Shown: piece by piece, positions 18,304-40,591 of the stretch
How the letters are laid out: the number at the start of each line of letters is the position of its first letter
Numbering within the stretch: position 1 is the first letter of the stretch
Source of the DNA: a virus
Strand: one strand, 5' to 3'
IMG/VR virus record: IMGVR_UViG_3300009551_000061
Coordinates: 1 to 47,714 of that record
Length of the DNA: 47,714 nt
Made by a program: the position numbers and the translations under genes
Notes under the pieces: model-generated
The model's input: only the letters and a program-made list of their open reading frames with translations
What the model was told of the DNA's origin: nothing
The model's database searches: none

Positions 18304-18334
18304 TCCCTCCTATGGGGCTGGAGAGTAGGAACCC

Positions 18335-19045
18335 ATGACCTCAACCTGTTTTACGCCCTTCAAGATTCCGAAGGTGCGGGTGACTCAGCTCAACTCCTGT
18401 GGTCAGGCGGTCACTGGGTGCTCCACTGTGGTCAGTGACGGCATCATCTCGGTCGCCTTGACCAAGGAGTATGAGGCCCGCCAGGAGTTCTTCGTCAAGA
18501 ACGGCAATGGTGACTTCTGCGTCAAGGAGACCAACCCACCGATCTTGAAGTGGATCAACCTGGTCCTCACCTTCTGCAACGTGGACCCGGAACTGATCAA
18601 CATCATGTCCGCCGAGCCCACGTACCTCAACGACGCTGTCTCGCCGTCCGCGATCGGTTACAACACCCAGGAGGGGACGGCAGCTAACGCCAACTTCGCC
18701 CTGGAAGGTTGGACCCGGATCACCAACAGCTCGGTGCCCTGTACGGGTAACACTCCCTTCGGGTACATGATCTTCCCGTGGGTGGTCGAGGGAACCGTTG
18801 GTGACGTGACCTATGAGAACGGTGCAGCCAGCTTCGTCCTCAACGCCCGGACCCGGTCCAACAGCCTCTGGGGTACTGGCCCGTACAACGTCAGCTACTC
18901 CGACAACCCAGTGGGATCCACGACACCACGGCCACTGTTCACGCCGATCACGTCAACGCAGCACAGTCGGATGTTCATTACTCGACTGGCCCCACCGGCT
19001 GCGACGTGTGGTTGCACGACCCTGGCCAGCCTGATCCCTAGCTAA
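18335..19045 (+). CDS. Probable major tail (tube) protein
   Basis: This 236-residue protein has the pattern VRVTQLNSCGQAV, then VVSDGIISVALTKEYEARQE, FVKNGNGDFCVKE, and WINLVLTFCNVDPELINIMS (about 70-90), which matches the order of actinophage major tail proteins (a DGF-V-S-V strand, a K-N-A-G-D-C-V turn, and F-C-x-V-D-P-E-L). The second half is beta-rich with many Thr and Asn. No other gene in the window fits the tail tube, and the usual place between neck and chaperones is empty. The unusual position just after the capsid genes lowers certainty. Confidence 0.65.
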   Translation: MTSTCFTPFKIPKVRVTQLNSCGQAVTGCSTVVSDGIISVALTKEYEARQEFFVKNGNGDFCVKETNPPILKWINLVLTFCNVDPELINIMSAEPTYLNDAVSPSAIGYNTQEGTAANANFALEGWTRITNSSVPCTGNTPFGYMIFPWVVEGTVGDVTYENGAASFVLNARTRSNSLWGTGPYNVSYSDNPVGSTTPRPLFTPITSTQHSRMFITRLAPPAATCGCTTLASLIPS

Positions 19046-25426: not shown

Positions 25427-27337
25427 ATGACCAACCCACTTGGTGGCGAGGACATCGGCAGGGCCGAGATTGAGGTCCATGCCGACACCACCCCGTTTCC
25501 CGGCGAGGCCAAGCGTGGTGTTGAGCGCGCCTTTGAGGACATTGACCCCTCCGTTAAGAAGACCGGGGAGCACTGGGGGGAGAGCCTCTCCGAGAACCTC
25601 AGCCGAAAGCTGGAGTCGGAGGCTCCTAAGGTCGCTCGGGACCTGGAACATGCTCTGGATCGCGAGACCGTTCACCAGCACATCAAGGTTGTCCCTGACT
25701 ACGACAAGAGCCAGGTCCGCACCGTTGTTCATGGGATCGCCACCGAGGTGGAGAAGGGCCTGACGGAAGGGCTTCAGAGCAGTGGAGTCTTCAGCAAGAT
25801 CGGTGCGGGCATCCAGGACGCTGTTGGTGCCGCCTTCAACGTGTCCGGCAAGTCCCCCCTCATTGCTCTGCTGATCCCTGTCATTGGTGGTATCGCTGGG
25901 CTGATCCTGGCCGCCGTGCAGGCTGTGTACGAGCTGAGCGCGGCCCTGTTCACGCTGCCTACCATCCTGGCCGCGATCATTGCTCAGGCTGGTGTGCTGT
26001 TCCTGATCTTCAAGGCTGTGGCGCCTGTCATCTCGGCGGTGCTGAGCGCCCAGAACGCCAAGGAACTACAGATTGCCCTGATGGGCGTAGCACCACCCAT
26101 TGCTGAGTTCGCCAAGAGCCTCATCCCCATCCGAGACTTCTTCGACCTGTTGAGCAAGAGTGCAGCGGTTGCGTTCTTCCGAGAGCTTGGTAACACCCTC
26201 AGCCTGATCTTCAACGCCAACAGTCGTGAGTTCTTCTTCGGTGTCATCAAGGTAGCTGGGGCACTGGGAGACTGGTTCAAGGTCGTTGGTAAGGCTTTCC
26301 AGTCACCCGTATTCACCAAGTTCCTTAAGGACCTGTTTGACTCCATCGCTCACTTCCTGGAGCGAGATGGGCCTTACTTCGAGGTGCTGCTGGAGAAGTT
26401 CTTCCAGTTCCTGGACATGATGATCGGTCCTGCCACTGATCTTGGTGCAATCTTCGACCTTCTCCTGATCAAAATCGGAGAATGGTTTGACATGCTCAAG
26501 ACCAGCCCTGACTTCAACAACTGGCTGGAACGACTTCCCCTCATGCTCATCGACGTGGGGGACGCCATTGGGTCAGTCCTGGAGCTAATTGGGACTCTCT
26601 TCAAGGACATCGATGAGGAAGGTGGCGCGGACTTCCTCAACAACTTCACCGTTGCGGTGAAGGAGCTGAACCTGATCTTCGAGAGTGACGCCGGCAAGCA
26701 AGCGATCAAGGTCCTCATCCAGGCCATTGAGATCCTCTCCCTGTCCTTCTTCGGCTTGATCGTTGTGATCATCTCTGTGCTGGCCTTCTTCGGAAAACTG
26801 GAAGAGGGAGTCAAGTGGATCGCTGACAGGATCCGTGACTTCTTCCACTGGATCTCCAGTGGATCTGATGAGGTCAGGACGCTCCCCGACAAGATCGGGC
26901 AATTCTTCGAGGGCCTCATCAGAAGTGCACCTGACTGGGGACGGCGACTGATGCAGGGCTTCATTGACGGCATCATGAACATGCTCGGTCCACTGGGCCG
27001 GGTCCTGGCCTTCATTGGAAAGCAAATCTCTGACCACCTTGTGACCCACTCCCCGGCCAAGGTGGGACCCCTGTCCATGGGCGGGGGGCCTGAGGGCTGG
27101 GGTGCCAACCTGGTGAAGGGCTTTGCCAAGGGCATCATGGCCGGCGGGGATCAGGTAAACACCGCAGTGAACTCCGTAGCCAGTGACATCAACTTCGGGC
27201 CAGGATCAGTGATCGCCACCTTTAACGGTTCCAACCCCACCCCGTCACAGGCCGCTGCTCTGGGCCAGGCCCTCGGTGGCGGGATCATCGACCAGCTCAC
27301 GGCACGTAATGCCCGGCTCGCAGTAAGGACCATGTGA
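25427..27337 (+). CDS. Tape measure protein
   Basis: This 636-residue protein sets tail length and is a scaffold for tube assembly. The N-terminal 130 residues are highly charged and helical, residues about 143-205 contain hydrophobic segments (SPLIALLIPVIGGIAGLILA and LPTILAAIIAQAGVLFLIF), and the rest is long amphipathic helix, ending in a GVN-like HSPAKVGPLSMGG block seen near the ends of tape measures. It follows the two chaperone genes, as usual. It is short for its class, so a short tail is predicted. The stop overlaps the next start (TGATG). Confidence 0.9.
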   Translation: MTNPLGGEDIGRAEIEVHADTTPFPGEAKRGVERAFEDIDPSVKKTGEHWGESLSENLSRKLESEAPKVARDLEHALDRETVHQHIKVVPDYDKSQVRTVVHGIATEVEKGLTEGLQSSGVFSKIGAGIQDAVGAAFNVSGKSPLIALLIPVIGGIAGLILAAVQAVYELSAALFTLPTILAAIIAQAGVLFLIFKAVAPVISAVLSAQNAKELQIALMGVAPPIAEFAKSLIPIRDFFDLLSKSAAVAFFRELGNTLSLIFNANSREFFFGVIKVAGALGDWFKVVGKAFQSPVFTKFLKDLFDSIAHFLERDGPYFEVLLEKFFQFLDMMIGPATDLGAIFDLLLIKIGEWFDMLKTSPDFNNWLERLPLMLIDVGDAIGSVLELIGTLFKDIDEEGGADFLNNFTVAVKELNLIFESDAGKQAIKVLIQAIEILSLSFFGLIVVIISVLAFFGKLEEGVKWIADRIRDFFHWISSGSDEVRTLPDKIGQFFEGLIRSAPDWGRRLMQGFIDGIMNMLGPLGRVLAFIGKQISDHLVTHSPAKVGPLSMGGGPEGWGANLVKGFAKGIMAGGDQVNTAVNSVASDINFGPGSVIATFNGSNPTPSQAAALGQALGGGIIDQLTARNARLAVRTM

Positions 27338-30300
27338 TGGGCGTCTATAACCCAAACATTCCCCGAGTGGTTGGCGAGGAGTGGGTGCCGATCCGGGATG
27401 AAGGCATTGTCTTCTCCCCGTCTATCAACACCGTGGAGTACGGCCACACTTTCACTCCGACTGCGAACCGCGTGCTTCAGTCTGGGAAGTTCTATGTCAA
27501 TCAGTTCCCGGCCTCGGTAGAGCAAGACCAGGTAATGCTGATCGGGGTTTATCCAACCGGCCGCGAAGGGCTGTCTGGCCCGGTCCGTTCAGTGATCATC
27601 CCTTGCAACAATGCTGAGATCACTGGCTCTGTTGACAGCGGCTCCAGTGCGCCCGTCCCTCAGGTGTTGCTCACTCCAGGCGACAACTTCTATATGAGAG
27701 GGCAGCCCAGCTCTAACGTCAACCCCAAGCGTCTGGCTCTTTATTTTGCCGTTAACCAGTTCTCTCAGTTGCTTGCCAACAAGCGGATCCTCAAGGTGGA
27801 GTTGATACATCAACTGAGCTGGGATCCGACCCTTAGTGGAACTGGCACAGCCTCTAGCAATCCCCCCTTCCTGGACGCAGGAGTAAGCCAGCTATCCATT
27901 GAGCGGACTGGTAGCCCACCGGCCCCCCGGGTGGCTCTGTACTCCCCGCTGGTTGACTTCTTTGGCTGCGGTCTCAACTTCCTCGGTTCGGGAATCCAGC
28001 TCGGATTGCCGGGTCAGGTTCAGATCACCACTGTCAACATGGGGGAGATCAACCCGGCGTCTGGCCCCATCTTGTTTGGTAACAGCACCACTACTGGCAC
28101 CGCGAGACTCCCGTGGCGGTACGAAGATTTGGCCCTGTTCGAAATCTCGGCAGGGGTCAATAGATACAGCATGATATATGACTTTGGCGCAACCAACGGA
28201 ACCTGGGCCGGCATCTATTATTTGGGCTATGCGGCGCTCAGAGTCACGTTCTGCGAAGAGCAACGAGTGGCCTATGGAGGAGCCCAATTCGGTAACTTCC
28301 TTCAGTACCTCAATGGCGCTAACGCAGTACCAATGTTTGACACGCACTACAACCAGAACCCTGTCATCATTGGCGGGACTCAATACACCGTTACGGTGTC
28401 TGCTCCCGACATTGGAGACATCCAGGGTCCGATCATTGCCGGCATCACCAAGCCAGCTTCAGCTAACGGTTATCCCACCCTCAGCGCCCTACGTGAACTG
28501 GACGTTAATCCGGTCCACGTAGGTATCAAGGTGAACCTCACTCAGACCGAAGGCGAAGTCTTCAGTCGCGAGACCACTCACGTACTACCCCAGCTTTCAC
28601 TGCACACCTCCGGTGGGCCTGTCACTGAGGTGCACGTCTACGGACGACAGGCCAGGGGTCAGGTATTTGGCTCCGTCACCGCCAGCCAGAATGTCCAGGA
28701 TGGGACCCTGGGTTTGTTTGGTGCCCGAGCGCAGGGTCTCACCCTGCCCGGTGGTTCAGGCAACTACGTGTCCACTCCCGACAATGCCGCACTTGACATC
28801 GTTGGTGACATTGACCTTCGTGCTGATATTCAGACCAACGACTGGACCGCCAACGGTGGACTGGTCACCAAATGGGGTGCGGCCGGAGTACGTAGCTATG
28901 AGTTTGCGATCAACCCAGACGGAACGCTTTCCATGGTGTGGTCAACGGATGGCACCTCCGTCCAGTTCGCCAACTCCACTATCCCCGTTCCAGCTCTTGA
29001 CGGACAGCGCCTTGCGGTACGTGCAACCCTGGACGTTGACAACGGGGCAGCGGGAAAAACGGTACAGTTCTTTACGGCACCAACTGCCGCCGGACCATAT
29101 ACACAGCTCGGCGCCAGCGTAACTTCCGGTGGTACGACAAGCATCTTCTCGGGGGCGGCCCAGGTTGAAGTCGGCAGCCACACTAATGGCACCGGCGACG
29201 TTTTCACCGGCACGGTCTACTCCGCTGAGATTCGTAATTCAATTGGCGGCACGCTGGTTGCAAACCCCATCTTCAGCGCGCAGCCCCCAGGGACTACCAG
29301 CTTCACTGACGCACCAGGACGAACCTGGACCCTCCATGCGTCGGCGGCCATCACTGCGGCCACAAGCTTCACCTTCCCACAGGTGCGGTTCTACGCCCGC
29401 CGGTTCGGCAACACGACCGTGCCACTGACCCTGTCGTCACCTGTCATCACGGGTACCGGAACCTCGGTATCTATTACGCCACCTCAGTTCGATGCCCTGC
29501 CCGAGATATTGGACGGCTGGAAGCAAGTGGATCTGCGGTTCAGCGGCACGATTGCCATGGGATCAATCCCCGATCCCCAGTGGACATGGTCGGCCTCTGG
29601 CGAACTTCAAGGCAACCGCTGGGAGGTCCTAGGGGCAACTGCACCGGCTCTGTCCGGCACGCCGGGCAGCCTGTTCACCTTGGCGCCCAACGGCAGTCTC
29701 AGTTCAGCCACCTATGGGCAGCCTCCTGCTGGCGCAGCTATCAACATGAGCTGGATGCCGCAGTATGCCCCTCCGGTATCTGGTAGCGCCAGCGATCAGA
29801 CCTCAGACGCCGTGCTGATGTTCGGCCAGGACATGCCCCTCGTCACCGGCTTCACGCTCACCCAAAGCAACCAGCCGTTGTCGGGCATAGGCCTGGATTG
29901 CAACGCTTACCCGTGGTACGTGCCGCGCTCCATGTCTTATAACCAGCTCACCTGGTCAACGATCACCCCCTCGCCATTGGGTGGCGTAGTCCTGCCAGCC
30001 GTGCCAGGTAACTACATTTCAACGCCGGATACGGCGAGTCTGGACATCACCGGAGACATAGACCTTCGTGCCGACTTTTCATTGCCGACTTGGGCACCAA
30101 CTGGCATCAACCATATGCTGATAGCTAAGTGGATTGATGGGGGCCAAAGGGCATACCTTTTGTGGATTGACGGTAACGGTGACATGCGATTCAACTGGTC
30201 CGCCGATGGAGTAAGTGGATTTGTTGCAATCGCCACGGTGCAGCCACCCGTGCTGGCTAATGGTGCACGTCAGGCGGTGCGAGTGACATTTGATGTTGAC

Positions 30301-31290
30301 AACGGCGCAAGCGGTCATACGGCAACGTTTTACACGGCACCAACCATAGATGGACCCTGGACGCAGCTTGGTGCCCCCGTCACCGCAGCCGGGGTAACGA
30401 GCCTTTTCAACTCAAATTCAATCGTTGAGGTTGGATCACTGAACAGCGGCACGACGGATTTCGGGTTCGGAACAATGCATGCGATTGAGATTCGCAATGG
30501 CATAAACGGAACCTTGGTCGCCAACCCCAAGTTCTGGAACAACGCCCCCACCGGGGCAACGTCCTTCACTGACAGCTTCGGCTTGGTCTGGACCATCAAC
30601 GGTGGGTATCAGTTCTCCGGGTTCGAGCACTATGAGATCCAGCGCATGGACACGATAAGCACTGACTGGAAGTCCATCGCCTACGTCCAGGCCCCACTCA
30701 CCAGTGGCTTCAGGGACTATGAGGCTCGGGTGGGGATCCTGACCAGTTACCGGATACGTGGCGTTGGCAACTTGCTCTTCACCGGGCCGTGGTCGACCAC
30801 GGTGACTGGAACCTTGGCGGCACCAGGAGTCACCGGCATTGGCATGGGGGCTAACGCCAAGACTCTCCTGTTCACCACCAACGAAGTCCAAAGTGGAGCC
30901 AGCAACTTGGCCTATGCCCTGGCCTTTGAGTCTGATACCACGGAGGAGTTCAAGTTTCCGGAGGCCGCGTTCAACCAGTACCAGCTCATGTACAACCGGG
31001 ACTTCCAAGTCGCCTTCCGACCACTGGAGCGGGGCGGTGAGACGTTCAGTCGCACGATCCTCGTCCAGGCCGCAGCCATCTCACCGCCGACTCTGGCTGA
31101 CTTCACCAGCCTGCGGAACCTGGCTTGGGATGACACGTCCTACGTGTGTGTCAGGGACGAGGATGGCAACCGGTGGTTCGCCAATGTCACTGTGCCTACG
31201 GGCCGGGTGAAGATGAACAACCGGGAGCTGTACCTGGCTGACATCAATGTCATTGAGGTCACCCAGACTCCGTCGGTGGTGCTGGCCTGA
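27337..31290 (+). CDS. Minor tail protein with duplicated lectin-like domains
   Basis: This 1317-residue protein begins at ATG overlapping the tape measure stop; a GTG three bases earlier is in frame. The N-terminal part (1 to about 450) is beta-rich. Two modules, about residues 456-668 and 878-1088, share the pattern GNYVSTPDNAALDI then GDIDLRAD, a V-x-x-T-x-DVDNGA strand and GTLVANPxF, with the layout of LamG/concanavalin-like domains. About residues 1089-1170 resemble a fibronectin III domain. Residues 668-878 and the C-terminus are further strands. It probably forms part of the tail tip or side fibres and binds host sugars; binding is inferred. Confidence 0.85.
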   Translation: MGVYNPNIPRVVGEEWVPIRDEGIVFSPSINTVEYGHTFTPTANRVLQSGKFYVNQFPASVEQDQVMLIGVYPTGREGLSGPVRSVIIPCNNAEITGSVDSGSSAPVPQVLLTPGDNFYMRGQPSSNVNPKRLALYFAVNQFSQLLANKRILKVELIHQLSWDPTLSGTGTASSNPPFLDAGVSQLSIERTGSPPAPRVALYSPLVDFFGCGLNFLGSGIQLGLPGQVQITTVNMGEINPASGPILFGNSTTTGTARLPWRYEDLALFEISAGVNRYSMIYDFGATNGTWAGIYYLGYAALRVTFCEEQRVAYGGAQFGNFLQYLNGANAVPMFDTHYNQNPVIIGGTQYTVTVSAPDIGDIQGPIIAGITKPASANGYPTLSALRELDVNPVHVGIKVNLTQTEGEVFSRETTHVLPQLSLHTSGGPVTEVHVYGRQARGQVFGSVTASQNVQDGTLGLFGARAQGLTLPGGSGNYVSTPDNAALDIVGDIDLRADIQTNDWTANGGLVTKWGAAGVRSYEFAINPDGTLSMVWSTDGTSVQFANSTIPVPALDGQRLAVRATLDVDNGAAGKTVQFFTAPTAAGPYTQLGASVTSGGTTSIFSGAAQVEVGSHTNGTGDVFTGTVYSAEIRNSIGGTLVANPIFSAQPPGTTSFTDAPGRTWTLHASAAITAATSFTFPQVRFYARRFGNTTVPLTLSSPVITGTGTSVSITPPQFDALPEILDGWKQVDLRFSGTIAMGSIPDPQWTWSASGELQGNRWEVLGATAPALSGTPGSLFTLAPNGSLSSATYGQPPAGAAINMSWMPQYAPPVSGSASDQTSDAVLMFGQDMPLVTGFTLTQSNQPLSGIGLDCNAYPWYVPRSMSYNQLTWSTITPSPLGGVVLPAVPGNYISTPDTASLDITGDIDLRADFSLPTWAPTGINHMLIAKWIDGGQRAYLLWIDGNGDMRFNWSADGVSGFVAIATVQPPVLANGARQAVRVTFDVDNGASGHTATFYTAPTIDGPWTQLGAPVTAAGVTSLFNSNSIVEVGSLNSGTTDFGFGTMHAIEIRNGINGTLVANPKFWNNAPTGATSFTDSFGLVWTINGGYQFSGFEHYEIQRMDTISTDWKSIAYVQAPLTSGFRDYEARVGILTSYRIRGVGNLLFTGPWSTTVTGTLAAPGVTGIGMGANAKTLLFTTNEVQSGASNLAYALAFESDTTEEFKFPEAAFNQYQLMYNRDFQVAFRPLERGGETFSRTILVQAAAISPPTLADFTSLRNLAWDDTSYVCVRDEDGNRWFANVTVPTGRVKMNNRELYLADINVIEVTQTPSVVLA

Positions 31291-32342
31291 TGTTTACAAC
31301 GCTGCCGCAGAACGACCTTCTTGACCTACCCCCCTGGGCCGGGCAGCGTTCAGTCACTTGGAACTTCAAACTGGTTAATGGAACAACGGGGGAACAGCTC
31401 GGGACGGTTACGCCATTACGTAGCGCGACCCTCCGTCATGAAACGACCCAGACCATCAAGCGCACCTTGAACATCAGTCTCGGCAAGGTCGATACCAACA
31501 ACATCGATGCCGTCTCGGCTCGCATTGAACTGGAGATGGTCCTTCAAGACAGAAGCGTGTGGCCACTGGGTCGGTACATGTTCACTGACCAGACCAAGAT
31601 TCAGTTCACATCGGGACTGTTGTCCAATGCTGTACTCAATGATGAGATGTTCCTGGTCGACCAGCCGATCATCAAGGGCTTCGACGCCACTCGCAAGAAT
31701 GCCACTGAGTGCTACGAGGAACTGCTTGAAGACCTGCCCGTTGAGTTTGTTGGTGAGCCAGGCACTTTCCTTATGACCCAGGGCTGGGGGGCCAACACCT
31801 CCCTGGGTTCGATACTCAACACCCTTGCGGTCAACGGAGATTACTTCAACCCGTGGTTCGGCAACGACAAAAAAATGCACCTGATCAGAACCTTCAACCC
31901 GGTGGATCGGGTGCCACAGTTCGACTGGGATTCCAGAAGCCAGGTAATGCGAGAGGGCATTACTGAGTCGTCCAATGTTCTCACGGCCCCCAATAGATTC
32001 ATGGTCACCAGCAACACGAACGTTGACACTGCACCCATTGTTGGCGTAGCTACCGTCCCCCCCACCGCTCCCAACTCGTTCACCAACCGAGGGTTCTACA
32101 TCACCCAGGCACAGACACTGCAATTATTCAGTGTGGCCCAAGCACAGGCGGTTGCTGCGGGACTGGCGAACAGATTCACGGTGTTCGAGACGGTCAACCT
32201 CAACACCCTCCCGGACCCTCGCCATGACTCCTATGATGTGATCTTCTGGAATGGATCCTTCTGGCTGGAGCTGGCCTGGAGTATGAACCTCACCCCTGGA
32301 GGTCTCATGGGACACACGCTACGTAAGGCCTACATGCCATGA
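31290..32342 (+). CDS. Minor tail protein, hub-like
   Basis: This 350-residue protein overlaps the previous gene by one base (TGATG). It begins with WNFKLVNGTTGEQLGTVTPL and has the pattern LRSATLRHETTQTIKRTLNI, PLGRYMFTDQ (about 95-104) and a C-terminal domain with VFWNGSFWLELAWS. This order (sandwich, then central insertion, then closing strands) is common for the tail hub proteins after the first minor tail protein. Exact function unknown. Confidence 0.75.
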   Translation: MFTTLPQNDLLDLPPWAGQRSVTWNFKLVNGTTGEQLGTVTPLRSATLRHETTQTIKRTLNISLGKVDTNNIDAVSARIELEMVLQDRSVWPLGRYMFTDQTKIQFTSGLLSNAVLNDEMFLVDQPIIKGFDATRKNATECYEELLEDLPVEFVGEPGTFLMTQGWGANTSLGSILNTLAVNGDYFNPWFGNDKKMHLIRTFNPVDRVPQFDWDSRSQVMREGITESSNVLTAPNRFMVTSNTNVDTAPIVGVATVPPTAPNSFTNRGFYITQAQTLQLFSVAQAQAVAAGLANRFTVFETVNLNTLPDPRHDSYDVIFWNGSFWLELAWSMNLTPGGLMGHTLRKAYMP

Positions 32343-33046
32343 CGGCACCAGATCAGACGGCCGACTCCCCGCAGCCCGTTGCCGCCTCAGCCACCGCTGA
32401 TGCCCTGGTGCAGAATGCAAGCCGTCTAGGACTCACCTGGGATCTGAAGCCCGCCACTGTTAAGTCGTTGAGTCCGCTCACTGTCACATTTGATGATGAC
32501 ACTGTGGCCGTAGGTGCCACGTCAATGATTGGAACGGTCGCTGCCGGCCAGAGGGTCTATGTGATCATCGTCCCCCCATCTGGCAACTTTATCACTGGAA
32601 CAGTTGGCCCCAACGCGGAACTAGGCCAGGGGCTGGTAGCAAGGGCGGGAAGTACCTCCAGTACCGCTGCCATTGGGGCGGAGACTGTAGTGCTTACTAC
32701 CAATACCTTTACGTTCCTTAGAGGGCGCGCATATCGATGGCTGATCATGGGCTCATACAATCAGAGTGCGGCCGGATTCTGGATCGTCAACATTCGTAAA
32801 AGCCTGGCCGGTCTCCTCTTGGGTCAAGTGGCCGACAACACCACCGTGGCCAACGGGCCATACCGAATGCATACGGGAGTATTTGTCGCCGCCACCGCAA
32901 ATGTCACGACATCCATAGTCCAAACAAATGCCTTCAGTGGTGCCGGCACCGTCACTGAGACGGCTAATGGAGTCTCGCCACGAACGCTAGAAATCTTCGA
33001 TGTTGGGCCCGCGAGCGATTATCCAATCTATCCGGCCATAACCTAG
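32339..33046 (+). CDS. Minor tail protein with OB-like N-terminus
   Basis: This 235-residue protein starts four bases before the previous stop. Residues about 30-90 have the pattern GLTWDLKPATVKSLSPLTVT, then VGATSMIGTVAAGQRVYVII, which recalls the OB-like barrel of baseplate/hub protein V families. Residues about 95-235 are a separate beta-rich domain with a FLRGRAYRWLIMGSY block. It ends the tail module before a run of sugar enzymes. Receptor contact is inferred only from position. Confidence 0.65.
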   Translation: MTAPDQTADSPQPVAASATADALVQNASRLGLTWDLKPATVKSLSPLTVTFDDDTVAVGATSMIGTVAAGQRVYVIIVPPSGNFITGTVGPNAELGQGLVARAGSTSSTAAIGAETVVLTTNTFTFLRGRAYRWLIMGSYNQSAAGFWIVNIRKSLAGLLLGQVADNTTVANGPYRMHTGVFVAATANVTTSIVQTNAFSGAGTVTETANGVSPRTLEIFDVGPASDYPIYPAIT

Positions 33047-33053
33047 GAGGAGC

Positions 33054-33236
33054 ATGCAGCCACAGCCACCGATCGACCCAACACTGCCCGAGTACAGCGG
33101 GCCGTACGATGCTGTCGACAATGGAACGTGCGCATGCCACGACTTGCCGGTCAACACGTTCGGCCGATGCGAACCACTGAACCAACCTGATGCCCAACCG
33201 AGGGGGACTAGTGCGAGTAGTGGTATTCCCGGCTGA
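33054..33236 (+). CDS. Small Cys-containing protein, 60 residues
   Basis: The gene has a very strong Shine-Dalgarno (AGGAGGAG) right before ATG. The protein is polar and Pro-rich, with a CACHDLPVNTFGRC core (C-x-C-H then C) that may bind a metal. Its last 26 bases overlap the chosen start of the glycosyltransferase that follows. No family recognised. Confidence 0.55.
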   Translation: MQPQPPIDPTLPEYSGPYDAVDNGTCACHDLPVNTFGRCEPLNQPDAQPRGTSASSGIPG

Positions 33237-34272
33237 CGCCTGGGCGTGTGGCCATTACCGGGTGATCTGGCCAGCCAACATACTCCAGCAGGAGGGCTGG
33301 GAAATCTTCATCGTCCCTCCTAACGAGAAGACCGGGTTCAACGTCAAGACCCAGGAGGATGAGCACGGCAAGCAGATCCTGACTGAGCTGACTACGCCCG
33401 AGTGTGACCTGGTGGTGTTGCAGCGACCGGGGCATCATCTTCAGCCTCAGCTCATCAAGGCTCTGCGTATGGCTGGCATCGCCGTGGTCATTGACATGGA
33501 CGATGACATGTCAGCACTGAGCCAGCATCACATAGCGTTCAAGATGTACTCGACCCGGACCAGCACCGACTTCTCCTGGCGGAATGCTCTGGAATCGTGC
33601 AAGCTCGCGACCTTTGTCACAACCAGTACGGCCGAGCTTCAGCGGACCTATGCCCCCCATGGTCGGGGCATGGTATTGGACAACTACGTGCCCGAGAGTT
33701 ACCTGAGCCTCGGTGAGCCGTCACCAGATCTTGGGTTCGGATGGGCCGGCACCGTGTCCTCACACCCTGATGATCTTCAGGTGTGTGGCAACACGGTCCA
33801 GAAGCTCGTGGCCGAAGATCACAAGTTCCGGGTGGTCGGTGACGGTAAGCATGTAGGCAAGTTGCTGCGCCTGCCTGAAGATCCTGAGGCCACCGGGGGC
33901 ACCGGTCTGGATCAGTGGGAGCGCACCATCCAACGCACCTTGAGCATCGGTATGGTGCCTTTGGCGCCAACCAAGTTCAACTCTTCCAAGAGCAGACTCA
34001 AGGGGATAGAGTACATGGCGGGAGGGATCCCCTGGGTAGCTTCACCGAGGCAGGAGTACCGTCGCCTCGCCCGCGAGTCGGGGTGTGGCCTCCTGGCGGA
34101 CACCCCCAAGGACTGGTACCGCCAGCTCAAGCTCCTGCTGACGGACGATGTCCTGCGTAAGGAGCAGTCGGAGCGTGGCCTGGAGTACATGCGTGACCAG
34201 ACGTACCAGGCCCAAGCCTGGCGCTGGGCGGAGGCCTGGACGCGGGCGGTGGAGATTCAGAGGGGGAAGTAA
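33211..34272 (+). CDS. Glycosyltransferase, GT-B fold (GT4-like)
   Basis: This 353-residue protein transfers a sugar from a nucleotide donor. The GTG at 33211 is chosen because GAGGGGG lies 7 bases upstream; an ATG at 33190 in the same frame is weaker. The N-terminal half has VVVFPADAWACGHYRVIWPA and the acceptor-side strands; the C-terminal half has GFGWAGTVSSHPDD (about 166-179), then TKFNSSKSRLKGIEYMAGGI (about 250-270) and WVAS, the typical donor-binding E-x-x-x-x-G-P region of GT-B enzymes. It opens the glycan cassette. The sugar and acceptor are unknown. Confidence 0.85.
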   Translation: MRVVVFPADAWACGHYRVIWPANILQQEGWEIFIVPPNEKTGFNVKTQEDEHGKQILTELTTPECDLVVLQRPGHHLQPQLIKALRMAGIAVVIDMDDDMSALSQHHIAFKMYSTRTSTDFSWRNALESCKLATFVTTSTAELQRTYAPHGRGMVLDNYVPESYLSLGEPSPDLGFGWAGTVSSHPDDLQVCGNTVQKLVAEDHKFRVVGDGKHVGKLLRLPEDPEATGGTGLDQWERTIQRTLSIGMVPLAPTKFNSSKSRLKGIEYMAGGIPWVASPRQEYRRLARESGCGLLADTPKDWYRQLKLLLTDDVLRKEQSERGLEYMRDQTYQAQAWRWAEAWTRAVEIQRGK

Positions 34273-34344
34273 GTGGTAGTCATCGTGTTCGGGATCATCT
34301 TCCTGATCCTGTTGGCGATCATGTGGTCAGGACGGAACAAGTGA
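34273..34344 (+). CDS. Membrane microprotein, 23 residues
   Basis: A GTG directly after the previous stop opens a 23-residue frame ending RNK. Residues 2-17 (VVIVFGIIFLILLAIM) are a single hydrophobic membrane segment. Its stop overlaps the next start. Because it is so short it may be a leader or spacer, but the position and hydrophobic core suggest a real membrane peptide. Confidence 0.45.
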   Translation: MVVIVFGIIFLILLAIMWSGRNK

Positions 34345-35021
34345 ACTACAAGGGGCTACGGCCCCGTTTCGCTGTGATCCCCACCAACGGCCGGGCCTGC
34401 CTCAAAGACTGCCTCATGGCCATCGCGCCTCAGGTGGACAGCACCATCCTGGTGTACACCGTGCCATGGCAGGACGGGGAGGTTCGACCTCATCCTCACT
34501 TCGGGGTGGCCCTGCGGGATATAGGGTCCCCGAACATCTCCCGGTGGTGGAATGAGGGCCTGGACATCTGCACACAGGTCATGGATATGACGGAGGGGGA
34601 CACCCCTGGTCGTTACGACGTGGCCATCCTCAACGACGATGTGATCGTCCCCCCGGGCTGGTTCGATGCGGTCTCCGATGGGATGCGGATGTACGAGTGC
34701 GCGGCAGCCTGCTCGGGCGCCCCGAGCAGCAGTCCCGTTCTGCTTCAGAGACCGGGCCCGGTGCCTTTGCACACCCGTCTCCAGGGCTTCGCATTCATCC
34801 TGGCCGGGGAAAAGGGAATCAGGGCCAATGAGGAACTTCGCTGGTACTTCAGTGACGACTACATTGACTGGCGGGCCCGGGAGCTGGGGGGCATGGTCAT
34901 GGTCCCCGGCCACAGTGTCAATCACCTGTACCCCAATGAGCAGATGACCGGGGAGCTGCACCAGTTCAGTGCTGAGGATGCGGCCAAGTTCAAGGAGATT
35001 TGGGGAGTCATGCCGTGGTAA
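34341..35021 (+). CDS. Glycosyltransferase, GT-A-like
   Basis: This 226-residue protein starts at a GTG (34341) that overlaps the microprotein stop; an in-frame GTG at 34323 is an alternative. It has FAVIPTNGRACLKDCLM (about 10-26, a typical GT2 opening), AILNDDVIVPPGWFD (about 95-109) with the acidic N-D-D at the metal site, and HTRLQGFAFILAGEKG (about 140-155), then a final HLYPNEQM. This is the sugar-nucleotide binding layout of GT2 enzymes. Substrates unknown. It is nested in the cassette by overlapping ends. Confidence 0.75.
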   Translation: MNYKGLRPRFAVIPTNGRACLKDCLMAIAPQVDSTILVYTVPWQDGEVRPHPHFGVALRDIGSPNISRWWNEGLDICTQVMDMTEGDTPGRYDVAILNDDVIVPPGWFDAVSDGMRMYECAAACSGAPSSSPVLLQRPGPVPLHTRLQGFAFILAGEKGIRANEELRWYFSDDYIDWRARELGGMVMVPGHSVNHLYPNEQMTGELHQFSAEDAAKFKEIWGVMPW

Positions 35022-35665
35022 CTAGACACCAGCTTCTGACCATGCTCCATGATCTTCTGAAGCCACCGGTGTACCTGGAGGTGGGGGTCCAATATGGACT
35101 GTCCCTGAATCTGGCGGTGCACTCGAAGCTTGCAGTGGGGATCGACCCAGAACCCCTTGTCCAGGCCGTTGGTAATCAGGTCATTTTCCCCATGACTTCC
35201 CAGGAGTACTTTGAGGACGATGTTAAGTACCAGCCTTCCATCGACATGGCTTTCATCGACGGGAGCCACCTCTGGGAAGACGCTCTGGAGGATTTCCTGT
35301 GGGTCTCCAGGTTCTGTCATGAGCGGTCAGTGGTCGTCTTTGACGATGTGCTCCCATACAACGCGGATATAGCTACACGGGAACCACTACCCGGTGACTG
35401 GACCGGTGACGTCTGGTACACCATGGTTGTCCTTGAGCCGCTACTCAAGGAGCGAGGCCTGAAGTCAGCCCGGGTGAACACTTCTCCTACGGGAACCTTT
35501 GTCGTATGGGGATTTGCCCAAGGCGACGGGGCCTGGATTGATGAGAACGTCCAGGCCGGAACACCACCGAGCACTCCGCCCGCTGATGTGCTCTTCCGGT
35601 TCAACGCCTACGAGGCGCAAGATGTCATTGATCGCATCAAGGAGGATCTGTGCGAATCGCAGTAA
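35015..35665 (+). CDS. SAM-dependent methyltransferase
   Basis: This 216-residue protein has class I methyltransferase motifs: motif I YLEVGVQYG (20-28), an acidic residue in AVGIDP (about 40-45), and DMAFIDGSHLWEDALEDF (about 77-94), which is typical of the methyltransferase 24 group acting on sugars or similar small acceptors. The GTG at 35015 follows GGGGAG with proper spacing; a longer TTG start at 35000 is less likely. In this cassette it may methylate a sugar, which is inferred. The C-terminus beyond 180 is Pro-rich. Confidence 0.8.
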   Translation: MVTRHQLLTMLHDLLKPPVYLEVGVQYGLSLNLAVHSKLAVGIDPEPLVQAVGNQVIFPMTSQEYFEDDVKYQPSIDMAFIDGSHLWEDALEDFLWVSRFCHERSVVVFDDVLPYNADIATREPLPGDWTGDVWYTMVVLEPLLKERGLKSARVNTSPTGTFVVWGFAQGDGAWIDENVQAGTPPSTPPADVLFRFNAYEAQDVIDRIKEDLCESQ

Positions 35666-36474
35666 CTGGTGGCTCGGGCTTCATCGGCCAGGCCGTCATC
35701 AAGCGGGCCCTGGCGGTCGGGCACGAAGCCTGGTCGGTGGATCGGGAGACCGGTCACGACATTGTGGAGAACAGCCTGGAGGAGGGGCTAGCTGACGCTG
35801 ACACTGTCATCCACCTGGCCGGCATCCTTGGCACCTCTGAGTTGTTCGAGATGCCCCACAAGGCCATCAAGGTCAACATTGGTGGCACCGTGCGGATCCT
35901 CCAGTGGTGCGCTGACGTCAGTGCGTCCTATGTGGGCATCACCATGCCCGACAGCTCCTGGGCGAACGTGTATCAGGCCACCAAACTGGCAGCTATGAGA
36001 ATGGCCACCGCATGGCACCGGTACTACGACGTACCCGTCTCTCACGTCAGAGCCTTCAACGTCTATGGACCGGGGCAGAAGTATGGCAATGGGCACCCGC
36101 AGAAGTTCCTCCCCACCTTCGCCACCCGGGCCTGGAGAGGTCTACCTCTGCCCATCTTTGGAAACGGGCTACAGACCATCGACCCTATCTATGTCGACGA
36201 CGTGGCACGGATGCTGGTGGACGCTACCGGATTCGGCGACGATGAGGTTTTTGACGCAGGCACCGGTAACCCGGTGACGGTGCGCGCATTCGCGTACATG
36301 GTGAACCGGATGTGTGGTCAGCCTGCGTCCAATGTGGACTTCCTTCCCATGCGCGCAGGGGAGACCGAGGAGACCTCTATCTGTGCTAGGGGTGAGGGCT
36401 GGGACAAACTGGACTGGCACCCCGAGTTCACCCCGGCGCTCATTGAGGACACGGTGAACTGGTACAAGCCGTGA
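35650..36474 (+). CDS. NAD-dependent epimerase/dehydratase (SDR)
   Basis: This 274-residue protein has an NAD-binding TGGSGFIG at residues 6-13, a DTVIHLAG strand at 51-58 and the catalytic YQATK (Tyr108, Lys112) preceded by Ser102-103. It is shaped like UDP-glucose 4-epimerase/dTDP-glucose 4,6-dehydratase enzymes, which rebuild a nucleotide sugar. YVDDVARM (about 181) and VFDAGTGNPVTVRA support the fold. The GTG start overlaps the methyltransferase end. It probably makes the sugar used by the glycosyltransferases around it; its exact product is not visible. Confidence 0.88.
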   Translation: MRIAVTGGSGFIGQAVIKRALAVGHEAWSVDRETGHDIVENSLEEGLADADTVIHLAGILGTSELFEMPHKAIKVNIGGTVRILQWCADVSASYVGITMPDSSWANVYQATKLAAMRMATAWHRYYDVPVSHVRAFNVYGPGQKYGNGHPQKFLPTFATRAWRGLPLPIFGNGLQTIDPIYVDDVARMLVDATGFGDDEVFDAGTGNPVTVRAFAYMVNRMCGQPASNVDFLPMRAGETEETSICARGEGWDKLDWHPEFTPALIEDTVNWYKP

Positions 36475-37187
36475 TCGTTCAGGCTTACAGTGCCATCTAC
36501 GGCAACTATGACCACCCGAAACCCATCACAGCGGCCGGGTTCAGTCGTACCCCCATCATGTTCACTGACTCAGAGCAGACCGCTACTGAGGCTGAGCAGA
36601 TGGGGTGGTGGCCGATTGTGGTTCCGCACCACTTCGATTCCCCCCATGGGGATCCGACAATCGTGGTGCCGATGCTGAACCACAAGTACTGGAAGTGTCA
36701 TCCCGATTGGCTGAACTTCTACGTGGATGACGAGTGGCCGGAGCGCACCTCCAACTCAGTTGATGTATCTATCTGGCTCGATGGATCAGTGGAGCCTCAT
36801 CCTGGGTTCGAGGAGAAGGCTCTGGCAGCCCTCGGTGATGATGACTGGGCCTGCGTACCACACCCGTCCCGGAGCTGTATCTACCCGGAGGCTGATTACA
36901 GTGCAACCCTCACCTGGCGATATGACGGCCCCTCCATCCTCGCCCAAGCCAACCATTACCGTGACTTCCATCCGCCCGGATGGGGCCTGTTTGCAACTGG
37001 GGTCAATGTCCGTCGTCATACACCAGAGGTCATCGAACTGTCCCATCTGTGGTGGGACGAGATTCTTAATTGGTCCCACCAAGACCAGTTGAGCCTGCCG
37101 GTGTTGCTGAGGCTATGGGAGGGGAAGGTCAAATGGAACACGAGACTGACATGGCACCAGGATTGGATCCTTCATCCGCACGGATAA
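36471..37187 (+). CDS. Putative glycosyltransferase, DUF616/TOD1-like
   Basis: This 238-residue protein begins YSAIYGNYDHPKPI (about 5-18), then has MFTDSEQTA, MLNHKYWKCHPDW, VDVSIWLDGSVEPHPGF (about 89-105) and the ending WNTRLTWHQD, which is the order of the DUF616/TOD1 group of glycosyltransferases with a W-x-D-G acidic site. It overlaps the epimerase by four bases (GTGA) and the next gene by about 55 bases. Sugar and acceptor unknown. Confidence 0.7.
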   Translation: MIVQAYSAIYGNYDHPKPITAAGFSRTPIMFTDSEQTATEAEQMGWWPIVVPHHFDSPHGDPTIVVPMLNHKYWKCHPDWLNFYVDDEWPERTSNSVDVSIWLDGSVEPHPGFEEKALAALGDDDWACVPHPSRSCIYPEADYSATLTWRYDGPSILAQANHYRDFHPPGWGLFATGVNVRRHTPEVIELSHLWWDEILNWSHQDQLSLPVLLRLWEGKVKWNTRLTWHQDWILHPHG

Positions 37188-37840
37188 GCGACGACTTCTA
37201 TGAAGAGGATGAGCCCCTAGAGAAGGCCATGGAGGCATTCGACAGGAGCCGGAAGCGCATCAGATTACGTCCCGGCGTCACGGTATGTATCGCGTCGCAT
37301 CCAGCTCGGACTAAGACGTGGTTGCCGATGGCCATCCAAAGTGTCCTTCAGCAGTCCCGCCAGCCTGACGCGATCCTGGTGGTAAATGATGTTGGAGCCA
37401 AGGGCGCAGGCTGGACACGTCGTACCCTGCTCCAGGCCGTGCAGACAGAGTGGATTGCTTGGCTCGACTCGGATGACGAGTGGTATCCCGAGCACCTGGA
37501 AAAGCTTCTCAACCACGCGTTGGAGACGGGTGCTGTGTATGTCTACTCGTGGTTTGACGGCCCCGACCCGCTTGGTCACTTTGGCCTGAAGTTCAAGCCG
37601 TGTACGCCTCACCACACCACTATGGGCCACCTGGTCAAGACCGAGCTGGCCCAACGGGTGGGGTTCCACGACTCGCAGCCCGGCCCATTCAGCAATGAGG
37701 ACTGGCTGTACATCGTGGGCATTGCCGAGATTGCTTGCCGTGAGAGCCTGATCATGAGTCACTTGCCTGAGAAAACATGGTTGTACCGCCAGGCAGGACA
37801 AAACAGCTCGGGGCAGCCCGGACAAGGGGATGCCCGCTAG
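37133..37840 (+). CDS. Glycosyltransferase family 2
   Basis: This 235-residue protein has VTVCIASHPARTKTWLPMAI (about 49-68), AILVVNDVGAKG (about 80-91) and EWIAWLDSDDEWYPEHLEKL (106-125), whose D-S-D-D is the metal and nucleotide-sugar site of GT2 enzymes. The ATG at 37133 is chosen because GGGAGGGGAAGG lies just upstream; it overlaps the previous gene by 55 bases. About 45 residues before the catalytic domain are acidic. The C-terminus is short for GT2. Role in the cassette is to add sugar to a growing glycan or protein; the acceptor is unknown. Confidence 0.82.
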   Translation: MEHETDMAPGLDPSSARISDDFYEEDEPLEKAMEAFDRSRKRIRLRPGVTVCIASHPARTKTWLPMAIQSVLQQSRQPDAILVVNDVGAKGAGWTRRTLLQAVQTEWIAWLDSDDEWYPEHLEKLLNHALETGAVYVYSWFDGPDPLGHFGLKFKPCTPHHTTMGHLVKTELAQRVGFHDSQPGPFSNEDWLYIVGIAEIACRESLIMSHLPEKTWLYRQAGQNSSGQPGQGDAR

Positions 37841-37855
37841 GTAAGGAGAAAGATC

Positions 37856-39145
37856 ATGGAACCAGATAGGCCGGTGCGATCACATCGAGCACCTAGCACG
37901 TTCCCGGTCCGCTTCCTCATGGCCGCCATCATCCTGTTCGTGGCAGCAACCACGTGGGCCATTACGTACCATGCTTCTGCTAAGGAGCAGCCCACCGCTG
38001 CCACCCCGGTCGACCTCATCGTGCCCAACCTGTCCGGGGACGAACTCAACGCCTGGTGCAAGGCCCGCGTCGCGGCCGGCACTCAAGGCCTGTCGACCCG
38101 GGCGAAGAACTGGCTGACTGACTGTGTGGCGGTGACCAATCCCTTGCCGTCCCCGAGCCCCTCCCCGTCGCCAAGCCCAAGCCCATCACCCTCCCCGTCG
38201 CCAAGCCCGTCACCAACCCCCACGACACCCTCACCGACCCCAACCACGCCATCACCGACACCCACCACGCCCAGCCCGTCCCCGTCTCCTAGCCCGGCTG
38301 GCTGCCCGGTAGCCGGCACCAACGTGCCCGGTGGAGCTGACCTGTGGGGCGGTTGCTGGCCAGGGCCTGGCAACACTGGCGTCCCGGCCAGCGCGGTGCT
38401 AACCGCGTACACCGGGTCATGCACCATCACCGTCGCCGGGACCGTCATTGACCACAAGCTGGTGACTTGCGCAACGCTTGACATCCGCGCGGCCAACGTG
38501 GTGATCCAGTTCTCGATGTTCAACGGGACCGACATCACCGACTCGGCCACCTCGTCGGCGTCGTTCACCATCAGCGACTCAACGGTAGTCAACGGTGCGC
38601 GGGACCAGTGCTTGTGCATTGGTGACCACAACTTCACCGCACTGCGGGTTGAGGTTCGTGGTGGGAACCGTTCGATGTACTGCGCCCGTACTTGCACGGT
38701 CACCGACTCGTGGCTGCACGGCCAGCAGTTGCAGGGCTCGCAGCACGGGTCGGGGCTACGCGAGGAGCAGGGCACCATGGCCACCCACAACGTGTTGGTG
38801 TGTGACTTCCCGATCGTGGATGACACCACCACGTTGGGGTGCTCGGCTGACCTGACCGGGTACCCGGACTTCGCACCGATCAAGAACAACACCATCCGGC
38901 GCAACCTGTTCCTTGCCTCACCGACTGACAGCTTCTGTGCCTACGGCGGTGCGACCAGCGGTAAGCCGTTCAGTTCAGACCCGACCAACGCCACTAACCA
39001 GGTGTTCACGGAGAACGTGTTCCAGCGGGGCGCCAATGGCAAGTGTGGTGCCTTCGGACCGATCACCGACTTCGCCACCGGGCGCACCGGCAACGTCTGG
39101 TCTGGCAACGTATGGGATAACGGCGGAGTGGTGAGTCCGGCGTGA
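37856..39145 (+). CDS. Membrane-anchored protein with Ser-Pro stalk and beta-helix-like head
   Basis: This 429-residue protein has a basic N-terminus, one membrane segment (about 19-40, FLMAAIILFVAATTWAI) and then an extracellular part, so it reads as a type II membrane protein. Residues about 60-95 carry two Cys. Residues 97-148 are a run of Ser-Pro and Thr-Pro dipeptides, a typical stalk and O-sugar target. The head (about 150-429) has repeated strand patterns such as TFTISDSTVVNGA and VTDSWLHGQ, recalling right-handed parallel beta-helix (pectate-lyase-like) proteins; no catalytic set was recognised. Surface display on the infected cell or virion-spike use are both possible. Confidence 0.75.
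   Translation: MEPDRPVRSHRAPSTFPVRFLMAAIILFVAATTWAITYHASAKEQPTAATPVDLIVPNLSGDELNAWCKARVAAGTQGLSTRAKNWLTDCVAVTNPLPSPSPSPSPSPSPSPSPSPSPSPTPTTPSPTPTTPSPTPTTPSPSPSPSPAGCPVAGTNVPGGADLWGGCWPGPGNTGVPASAVLTAYTGSCTITVAGTVIDHKLVTCATLDIRAANVVIQFSMFNGTDITDSATSSASFTISDSTVVNGARDQCLCIGDHNFTALRVEVRGGNRSMYCARTCTVTDSWLHGQQLQGSQHGSGLREEQGTMATHNVLVCDFPIVDDTTTLGCSADLTGYPDFAPIKNNTIRRNLFLASPTDSFCAYGGATSGKPFSSDPTNATNQVFTENVFQRGANGKCGAFGPITDFATGRTGNVWSGNVWDNGGVVSPA
38146..38300 (+). repeat. Ser-Pro / Thr-Pro coding repeat
   Basis: About 155 bases encode a run of Ser-Pro dipeptides followed by three copies of the unit SPTPTTP and more Ser-Pro. The bases are a low-complexity C-rich series. It is the stalk of the anchored beta-helix protein. 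Confidence 0.85.
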
Positions 39146-39308: not shown

Positions 39309-39401
39309 ATGAACTTCATCTGTGGGCCATGCAAGGACCGGGAGCACGACAAGTGCCCTGGCGGTAGCTGGTGTGACTGTCACCACCGGGCGCCGAAATG
39401 A
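39309..39401 (+). CDS. Cys-rich zinc-type microprotein, 30 residues
   Basis: The ATG has a GGGGAG Shine-Dalgarno and lies past the terminator. The protein has the pattern C-x2-C (CGPC), then C-x6-C-x-C-H-H, ideal for binding one or two zinc ions. Its stop overlaps the endolysin start (ATGA). Similar small proteins occur next to lysis genes in actinophages, as far as I recognise by pattern. Function unknown. Confidence 0.7.
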   Translation: MNFICGPCKDREHDKCPGGSWCDCHHRAPK

Positions 39402-40171
39402 CTGTCACCACGTATCAGGGCTGGGTCAACGACGGGAAGCCGTGGAAGAACTGCCAGCCCATTAACGACTTCATCGCCACCCTGTACCGGCACGGGTACA
39501 CCGGTCCCACTGCGGGCATCGGGGACCAGTCTCATTTGACCGCCACGCCACCAGAGGACCACTGCCCTTACAGCCACACCCCCTGGCCTGGAGTGCAGCC
39601 GTACCCGTTCGTGATGGCCATTGACATCATGGGCGGCGAGGGCCTGGACCTGATTCGACTTGGCGGGCTCATATTCAACGACAAGAACTCGAATGTGCCT
39701 GGTACCGAGCCGATCAAATACATGAACTGGACCGACTCGGCCAACAACTGTTTCCATGACTCGTGGCAGCCCAATCACACTCGCTACAACTCCAGCGACC
39801 GGGGGCACATCCACATCAGCTTCCGCACTGACTACGTCACCAGCAACCGCATGGCGATTTACGACCCGTACGGCTCTTCCACTGAGGATGAAGACATGCC
39901 CTACTTCCTGGCAAGCGACGACAGCCAAAGCATCTATCTGGTGACCGGGGCGACGGCACCCAGCGGCAAGATTGCCGCTTATGGCCTAAGCCTGGATCAG
40001 TGGAATGCGCACAAGGCGCTTGGCCTGAAATCGGTCACGCTGACCACGCTGTCTGGGTCTATGTTTGACACCAATCCGCAGCCGTGGCCTGCCGGTGGTG
40101 GCGGTTCTGGTCCGGCCCCTTCTCCGGCCAACTACACGATCAATTTGTCCGGAGTTGCAAGTCCCGAGTAA
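39398..40171 (+). CDS. Endolysin, zinc metallopeptidase (M15/LAS-type)
   Basis: This 257-residue protein cuts peptide bonds of peptidoglycan to burst the cell. It shows the three-part metal site of LAS/M15-like peptidases: H55 in PPEDHCPYS, D76 in MAIDIM and H137/H139 in DRGHIHIS. It has no signal peptide, so it needs a holin. The C-terminal part (about 165-257) has a YFLASDDSQSIYLVTG block that may be wall-binding, then a Gly/Pro-rich tail. The gene is directly after the Cys-rich microprotein and before a holin-like gene. Confidence 0.85.
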   Translation: MTVTTYQGWVNDGKPWKNCQPINDFIATLYRHGYTGPTAGIGDQSHLTATPPEDHCPYSHTPWPGVQPYPFVMAIDIMGGEGLDLIRLGGLIFNDKNSNVPGTEPIKYMNWTDSANNCFHDSWQPNHTRYNSSDRGHIHISFRTDYVTSNRMAIYDPYGSSTEDEDMPYFLASDDSQSIYLVTGATAPSGKIAAYGLSLDQWNAHKALGLKSVTLTTLSGSMFDTNPQPWPAGGGGSGPAPSPANYTINLSGVASPE

Positions 40172-40190: not shown

Positions 40191-40213
40191 CATGACCCAG
40201 ACTGGATCATGTG

Positions 40214-40591
40214 ATGCCATACCAGGACCCCCCAAAGGCCCAGCTCACATGGCCTCAGGCCATCGTGGTTCTGGGACTGGCGGCCATGCTCATGACCTCA
40301 GTCACTGTACTGGCGCTCAACAACAAAGATGTGGGCGCCATCCTCTCCGCCGTCGGCGGCATCATCCTGGTCGTTGGTGGCCTGTTCGGATACAGCCTGC
40401 ACAACAAAGTCGACCGGGTTGAAACCATGGCCAACGGCCGTCTCAGTGAGCAGATCGAGTTGAACCAGAAGCTGAACGAGAAGGTTCAGGCCCTGGCGTT
40501 GCTCGTGCAACCTCCCCCATTGCCTGACCCCCCGCTACAAACCCCTGACACGGTCGGTCCGACATCAGGAGTTCCGGTGGCTCCCCAGTGA
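40214..40591 (+). CDS. Holin-like membrane protein
   Basis: This protein of about 125 residues has two hydrophobic segments, about 13-33 (WPQAIVVLGLAAMLMTSVTV) and about 42-60 (AILSAVGGIILVVGGLFGYS), then a helical charged stretch and a Pro-rich tail. A two-segment topology next to the endolysin is typical of phage holins that open the membrane at a set time. The ATG at 40214 is chosen; a GTG at 40211 is also possible and neither has a strong Shine-Dalgarno. Confidence 0.7.
   Translation: MPYQDPPKAQLTWPQAIVVLGLAAMLMTSVTVLALNNKDVGAILSAVGGIILVVGGLFGYSLHNKVDRVETMANGRLSEQIELNQKLNEKVQALALLVQPPPLPDPPLQTPDTVGPTSGVPVAPQ

Follow-up and report, generated by a model that had tools for sequence, protein, structure and literature searches.

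A conserved six-gene glycan cassette behind the tail genes of an uncultured actinophage and its probable role in virion glycosylation

The soil virus record IMGVR_UViG_3300009551_000061 of IMG/VR, analysed over 47,714 nucleotides (47.7 kb, an incomplete genome; hereafter the window), carries behind its tail genes a cassette of six enzymes for sugar chemistry, designated by the working names GTB, GTA, MT, EPI, D616 and GT2. The backbone is of the phiAsp2/Rosebush type, comprising terminase, portal, MuF/protease, major capsid, tail tube, tape measure and tail-tip genes, and no near DNA match to the window was found in cultured phages. All six genes lie on the plus strand after the tail-tip genes and are followed by the gene of a stalk protein and by two putative lysis genes, one for an endolysin and one for a holin-like protein (Table 1). 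A preliminary description, made from the sequence alone, had announced six sugar enzymes in one overlapping run at 33054-39145, between tail and lysis genes. The six open reading frames (ORFs) do exist there, five recognised by Pfam and the sixth by a predicted GT-A fold. The interval itself required correction, as its first ORF (33054-33236) falls outside the set, which begins with GTB at a GTG start derived from homologues. Overlap was found at four of the five junctions, the GTB-GTA junction leaving about 50 bp. The tail side of the cassette is certain, given the tape measure, LamG tail and tail-tip genes, while the lysis side is suggested by position and weak similarity.

Pfam assigned GTB to Glyco_trans_1_4 (9e-7), MT to Methyltransf_24 (5e-9), EPI to Epimerase (2e-32), D616 to TOD1_MUCI70 (6e-6) and GT2 to Glycos_transf_2 (3.5e-13), with no Pfam match for GTA. 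GTB is 34% identical to gp165 of Arthrobacter phage Atuin. The predicted structure of GTA (predicted local distance difference test, pLDDT, 84) adopts a GT-A fold, the nearest structural neighbours of which are polypeptide GalNAc-transferases, RmlT, TarS/TarP and KfiA. Profile searches of the PDB gave GTA a weak match to GmaR (2.6e-5, N-terminal part only), which may serve as a lead, not as proof, for protein O-GlcNAc transfer, and returned no sequence match for GTB, D616 or MT. The MT model resembles the O-methyltransferase COMT and has among its structural neighbours MeT1 of M. hassiacum, a sugar O-methyltransferase. EPI is a short member of the short-chain dehydrogenase/reductase family with the YxxxK motif, its best PDB relative being Pal; every NCBIfam match fell below the cut-off and none gave a specific name, so its product sugar cannot be named. 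D616 matched no family beyond TOD1/MUCI70 and is nearly absent from cultured phages, where three records of cyanophage or marine origin contain it. The start of GT2 is probably near 37151 rather than at 37070. None of the six enzymes contains a transmembrane (TM) segment, the highest mean hydropathy over 19 residues being 1.24, versus 2.06 for the stalk protein and 2.47 for the holin-like protein. A possible single-TM peptide in the GTB-GTA gap, MVVIVFGIIFLILLAIMWSGRNK, was considered as a conserved anchor and rejected, being present in no more than three of the checked contigs; apart from the window, small TM ORFs resembling it at this gap were seen only in L004 and L052 (L and G numbers label compared contigs or loci).

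Table 1. Features of the window discussed in the text
Feature	Position	Strand	Remarks
Ala/Lys/Pro-rich protein, 2431 aa	7892-15187		between head protease and capsid genes
Major capsid protein	15632-17383		
Tail protein, two LamG-like repeats	27334-31290		
Conserved tail-tip protein, upstream of cassette	31290..32342	+	anchor for finding relatives; homologues in 39 IMG/VR loci
Tail-associated protein	32339..33046	+	N-terminal 90 aa conserved, C-terminal part variable; directly 5' of cassette in relatives
GTB, soluble GT-B glycosyltransferase	33211..34272	+	PHROG_7162, Pfam Glyco_trans_1_4; start from homologues
Possible 23-aa single-TM peptide	34273..34344	+	candidate ORF in GTB-GTA gap
GTA, GT-A fold glycosyltransferase, no Pfam model	34323..35021	+	homologous to Streptomyces phage Zuko gp108
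MT, class I S-adenosylmethionine O-methyltransferase	35000..35665	+	Methyltransf_24; COMT/MeT1-like model; start 35000 or 35015
EPI, short NAD-dependent epimerase/dehydratase	35650..36474	+	PHROG_540; YxxxK kept
D616, TOD1/MUCI70 (DUF616-like) glycosyltransferase-like protein	36471..37187	+	Pfam TOD1_MUCI70
GT2, family 2 glycosyltransferase	~37151..37840	+	PHROG_14775; homologous to phiAsp2 Pas33 and Che8 gp108 N-terminal domain; start uncertain
Signal-anchored Ser/Thr-Pro stalk protein, Cys-rich, possibly beta-helix domain	37856..39145	+	neighbour, outside conserved module
Putative endolysin	39398..40171	+	D...HxH, L-Ala-D-Glu peptidase/M15-like pattern; putative function
Putative holin/spanin-like membrane protein	40211..40591	+	

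Relatives of the locus were identified through three scans, using the GTB sequence (8 viral contigs), the tail-tip protein (39 loci) and a GTB profile (80 loci). Most of the eight contigs show the order tail-GTB-GTA-MT-EPI-D616-GT2, and homologues of the cassette proteins align with conservation over their full length in many viral contigs. The tail-gene scan, which was not conditioned on sugar genes, revealed at least one of these glycosyltransferase (GT) families downstream in all 35 contigs with further sequence (L034, L035, L045 and L046, whose sequence ends too early, were left out). A search for the same six-gene order in other phage genomes, as the preliminary description had proposed, found all six families on 22 IMG/VR contigs, out of 90 distinct contigs, within 4.6-7.3 kb. 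GTA-MT-EPI-D616-GT2 is kept in 22/22 with GTB at one end; the exact window order is present in 12, the others having GTB at the far end or an additional GT. Three pairs among the 22 are 100% identical, leaving 19 distinct uncultured contigs, and the combination, earlier thought uncommon, is thus common in uncultured soil phages. Within the range searched, no member of the cultured-phage collection had the complete set. The earlier view of a self-contained glycan module beside tail genes is supported.

Comparison of the close pair L003/L006 gave ratios of nonsynonymous to synonymous substitution (dN/dS) of 0.09-0.31 across all six genes, indicating that they are maintained. In this pair the tail-tip genes and GTB show a synonymous divergence of 0.11-0.20 and GT2 one of 0.26, against 0.41-0.69 for GTA, MT, EPI and D616, so the interior has probably been replaced by recombination. 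In the six-family tally, D616 never occurs on the cassette strand without MT and EPI (L021 and L033 hold a reversed D616-like frame), and MT-EPI-D616 act together as a sub-module that is optional on a GTB/GTA/GT2 core. Because D616 does not occur apart from the other two, the triad may well handle a single sugar that is made, transferred and methylated.

The slot also accepts other contents. L005 and L008 keep GTB and GT2 around different interiors, encoding a GDP-mannose-dehydratase-like protein, a C-methyltransferase (Methyltransf_13/14), a UDP-glucose/GDP-mannose dehydrogenase, an FAD oxidoreductase and more GTs. In one group of contigs, which have no GTA, the tail genes are followed by a gene homologous to the GT portion of phiAsp2 Pas34, and the slot is empty in two backbone relatives, Gordonia phage Phlop and Microbacterium phage Leaf. 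The interior is exchanged between phages in the style of capsule loci, which would give different phages different coat sugars. A stronger form of this idea, put forward tentatively and at somewhat less than even odds, is that of a "phage glycotype locus": throughout a large clade of soil actinophages, one fixed position would be given over to glycan genes and these would be reshuffled there, much like the contents of bacterial capsule loci, with GTB and GT2 near the ends and MT-EPI-D616, C-methyltransferase plus nucleotide-sugar dehydrogenase, FAD oxidoreductase or a phiAsp2-type GT as interior options. If so, close relatives would wear chemically different coats, selected for diversity. Additionally, a prophage of Micromonospora sp. 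CPCC 205371 (L127) has, downstream of phage tail genes, the arrangement GTA-MT-EPI-D616-GT2-(second epimerase)-GTB, and a capsid gene of the window type is also present in that genome. This prophage, together with phiAsp2 of Actinoplanes, suggests hosts among the Micromonosporaceae or related bacteria.

Phage virion glycosylation has been proven only recently and in few mycobacteriophages. With a hidden Markov model (HMM) of the window GT2, Che8 gp108, a GT2-methyltransferase fusion, was matched at E 1.9e-12 and phiAsp2 Pas33 at 7.4e-11; all three belong to PHROG_14775, and Pas35 and Che8 gp110 both belong to PHROG_854. phiAsp2 therefore forms a bridge, its slot matching that of the window and two of its genes matching Che8. 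According to PMC12363180, the virions of Che8, Corndog and Myrna are glycosylated, and the two GTs essential for glycosylation of the capsid are Che8 gp110 and Corndog gp38. PMC12619734 places mycobacteriophage glycans on the capsid and the tail tube, at the C-terminus of each protein. Freeman et al. 2023 is cited in both. The relationship of the cassette to genes of Che8 and phiAsp2 speaks for virions. With no membrane-bound enzyme in the set, and with the thymidylate-synthase-like, bactoprenol-initiating, flippase and PMT families not found in the clade of the window, glycosylation of virion proteins in the cytoplasm is the best reading and a fairly probable one; the polypeptide GalNAc-transferases among the structural neighbours of GTA likewise count for protein glycosylation. 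In the cytoplasm of an infected actinobacterium, EPI would convert a host nucleotide sugar into a modified donor; the soluble GTB, GTA, GT2 and D616 protein would assemble, presumably in succession, a short O-glycan attached to a subunit of the virion structure, with MT capping a sugar hydroxyl. The glycan might serve to shield the particle or to tune adsorption.

The acceptor in this scheme would most likely be the capsid and/or the tail tube, as in mycobacteriophages. The C-terminus of the major capsid protein (MCP) is a Cys-bounded tail containing Ser/Thr. The tail-tube C-terminus, ..CGCTTLSSLTPS, with a conserved Ser/Thr-Pro motif at its end, is shared throughout the clade and in part by phiAsp2, whereas the CGC-SSLTP end is missing from three relatives infecting Gordonia. 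Both termini fit the sites glycosylated in mycobacteriophages, which makes them suggestive leads and no more. As a separate observation, the last ~18 codons of MCP (window 15632-17383 and L130-L150) occur in discrete alleles, CPSGKTTxxGTLTCP, CPNGSTGVQRAVTC, CPNGKTGLQRDVTC and CPSGRTGNQQTITCP, which jump between capsids only 45-70% identical: for example, the sisters G001 and G004 differ, and the distant G026 and G015 share one.

Several points weigh against virion glycosylation. Any acceptor is still a candidate, and the GT-A fold match of GTA is generic. Wet evidence is confined to distant mycobacteriophages. A convincing homologue of Che8 gp110 was not found in the window, the GTA HMM reaching merely E 0.15, so the window is not a plain member of the Che8 gene set. 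Furthermore, the MCP tail alleles (KTT, STGxQR, KTGLQR and NQQ types, in mosaic) show no agreement with the tree of any gene in the cassette (every p >= 0.1 in a Fitch test), and the capsid is thereby neither named nor excluded as acceptor.

It has also to be considered that the tail fibre or receptor-binding protein alone is glycosylated, either the LamG protein or the tail-associated protein next to the cassette, so that adsorption would be tuned rather than the particle shielded. The cassette always lies directly downstream of tail-tip genes, and the tail-associated family is the most variable of the compared proteins, with a median identity of 25% among six-gene phages. The argument is nevertheless one of position; the proven mycobacteriophage acceptors are capsid and tail tube (PMC12619734), and Zuko-type cassettes stand elsewhere in the genome, making this explanation unlikely.

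About equally improbable is a modification of the host surface, by which a cell-wall or membrane glycan would be altered for superinfection exclusion or serotype conversion. Some carriers are temperate, such as the Micromonospora prophage, and TarP and RmlT, acting in cytoplasmic wall teichoic acid glycosylation, are among the structural neighbours of GTA. The phages, however, encode no flippase, initiating transferase or membrane GT: PF02397, PF02366 and PF01943 (Bac_transf, PMT and Polysacc_synt) are absent from them and present in the Micromonospora host genome, which served as control. Moreover, late expression from a slot between tail and lysis genes would come too late to protect the cell, and the relatives in Che8 and phiAsp2 argue for virions as the target.

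DNA hypermodification, in which the GTs would decorate a base carrying a hydroxymethyl group, as happens in T4-like and TET/JBP phages, fares worse and is considered quite improbable. There are known clusters of phage GTs that act on DNA (Pyle 2024, cited in PMC12619734), and six distant relatives with GT cassettes (G018, G019, G021-G024; L160-L163) carry thymidylate-synthase-family genes. Such genes, which would include a hydroxymethylase, are nevertheless absent from the window, an incomplete genome, and from its near clade, with the positive controls giving signals; MT is modelled as an O-methyltransferase and not a DNA methyltransferase, and the slot is tied to tail genes, not replication genes. 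A TET/JBP search, which did not include the window, gave 0/30 with its control silent too. The absence of a gene for hydroxymethyl pyrimidine synthesis, noted earlier, agrees with the thymidylate-synthase result; together with the MT model and the Che8/phiAsp2 homology, this upholds the earlier preference for protein over DNA as target.

The exported Ser/Thr-Pro stalk protein, formerly seen as the end of the cassette and suggested as its target, is a real protein whose gene follows GT2 at 15 bp; it is rejected as acceptor, with scarcely any probability left to it, since a signal-anchored protein is normally modified by membrane PMT and not by soluble cytoplasmic GTs, and related domains are confined to L032/L063 (a single contig, with the domain on the other strand) and L091, none of them cassette-linked. 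Its chain combines an (SP)n/(PSPTPTT)n stalk with 14 Cys, and no match was found among cultured phages or in the PDB. At the corresponding place after GT2, L005 encodes a secreted ricin-B-type lectin (17955-18602). Elsewhere in the window, the LamG-like repeat family is common to Streptomyces and Arthrobacter phages, with the repeat region differing among relatives. The 2431-aa protein, possibly an injected head protein, has 230 N-terminal residues that by eye resemble an ADP-ribosyltransferase-type domain, and its residues 780-814 match PHROG_2724.

Because the six genes recur in nearly the same order and place in other uncultured phage contigs, the sugar-coating of virus particles may be much commoner than the few proven cases. 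The locus is wider and more elaborate than those of the proven mycobacteriophages, having its own sugar-making and sugar-capping enzymes, and its slot is kept in at least 19 distinct uncultured contigs and one named Micromonospora prophage. It offers a way to test the purpose of phage glycans, for which the prophage-bearing isolate is a practical test organism, and supplies small, soluble enzymes for the glycosylation of proteins.

Among known systems, bacterial capsule and O-antigen loci and Gtr serotype-conversion cassettes share with the window conserved ends, exchanged interiors and the pairing of a nucleotide-sugar enzyme with GTs, whereas the window has no flippase, polymerase, initiating lipid-linked transferase or membrane GT. 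The Arthrobacter phages Atuin, Mimi, Racecar and Talia1610 possess a GTB homologue (34% identity) and a GT2 homologue, although in a genome of 194 kb their GT genes stand amid genes for tRNAs and DNA metabolism. The Streptomyces phages Zuko and KimJongPhill encode homologues of GTB, GTA and GT2, a UDP-glucose dehydrogenase and a methyltransferase of its own PHROG (the window MT HMM gave no match to Zuko gp107), but their glycan genes are split over both genome ends on an unrelated backbone without D616, which indicates that these GT families travel together. Che8, like Corndog and Myrna, resembles the window in having soluble phage GTs and a methyltransferase, with the GT2 family in common, yet its genes occupy the right genome end and its annotated cluster gp108-gp110 includes no epimerase, GTB or D616. 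phiAsp2 differs in holding three genes instead of six, with a Che8 gp110-like Pas35, no EPI, GTB or D616 and a predicted cassette function; the GT part of its Pas34, unlike Pas35, recurs in further contigs of this family, L030 and L051 among them. It is at the same time the closest cultured head relative of the window (MCP 46% identity), with the same head backbone and the same slot after the tail genes, occupied by GT / GT+MT / GT (Pas33-Pas35), in which Pas33 is the GT2 homologue and a methyltransferase of the same Pfam family as MT is fused in Pas34.

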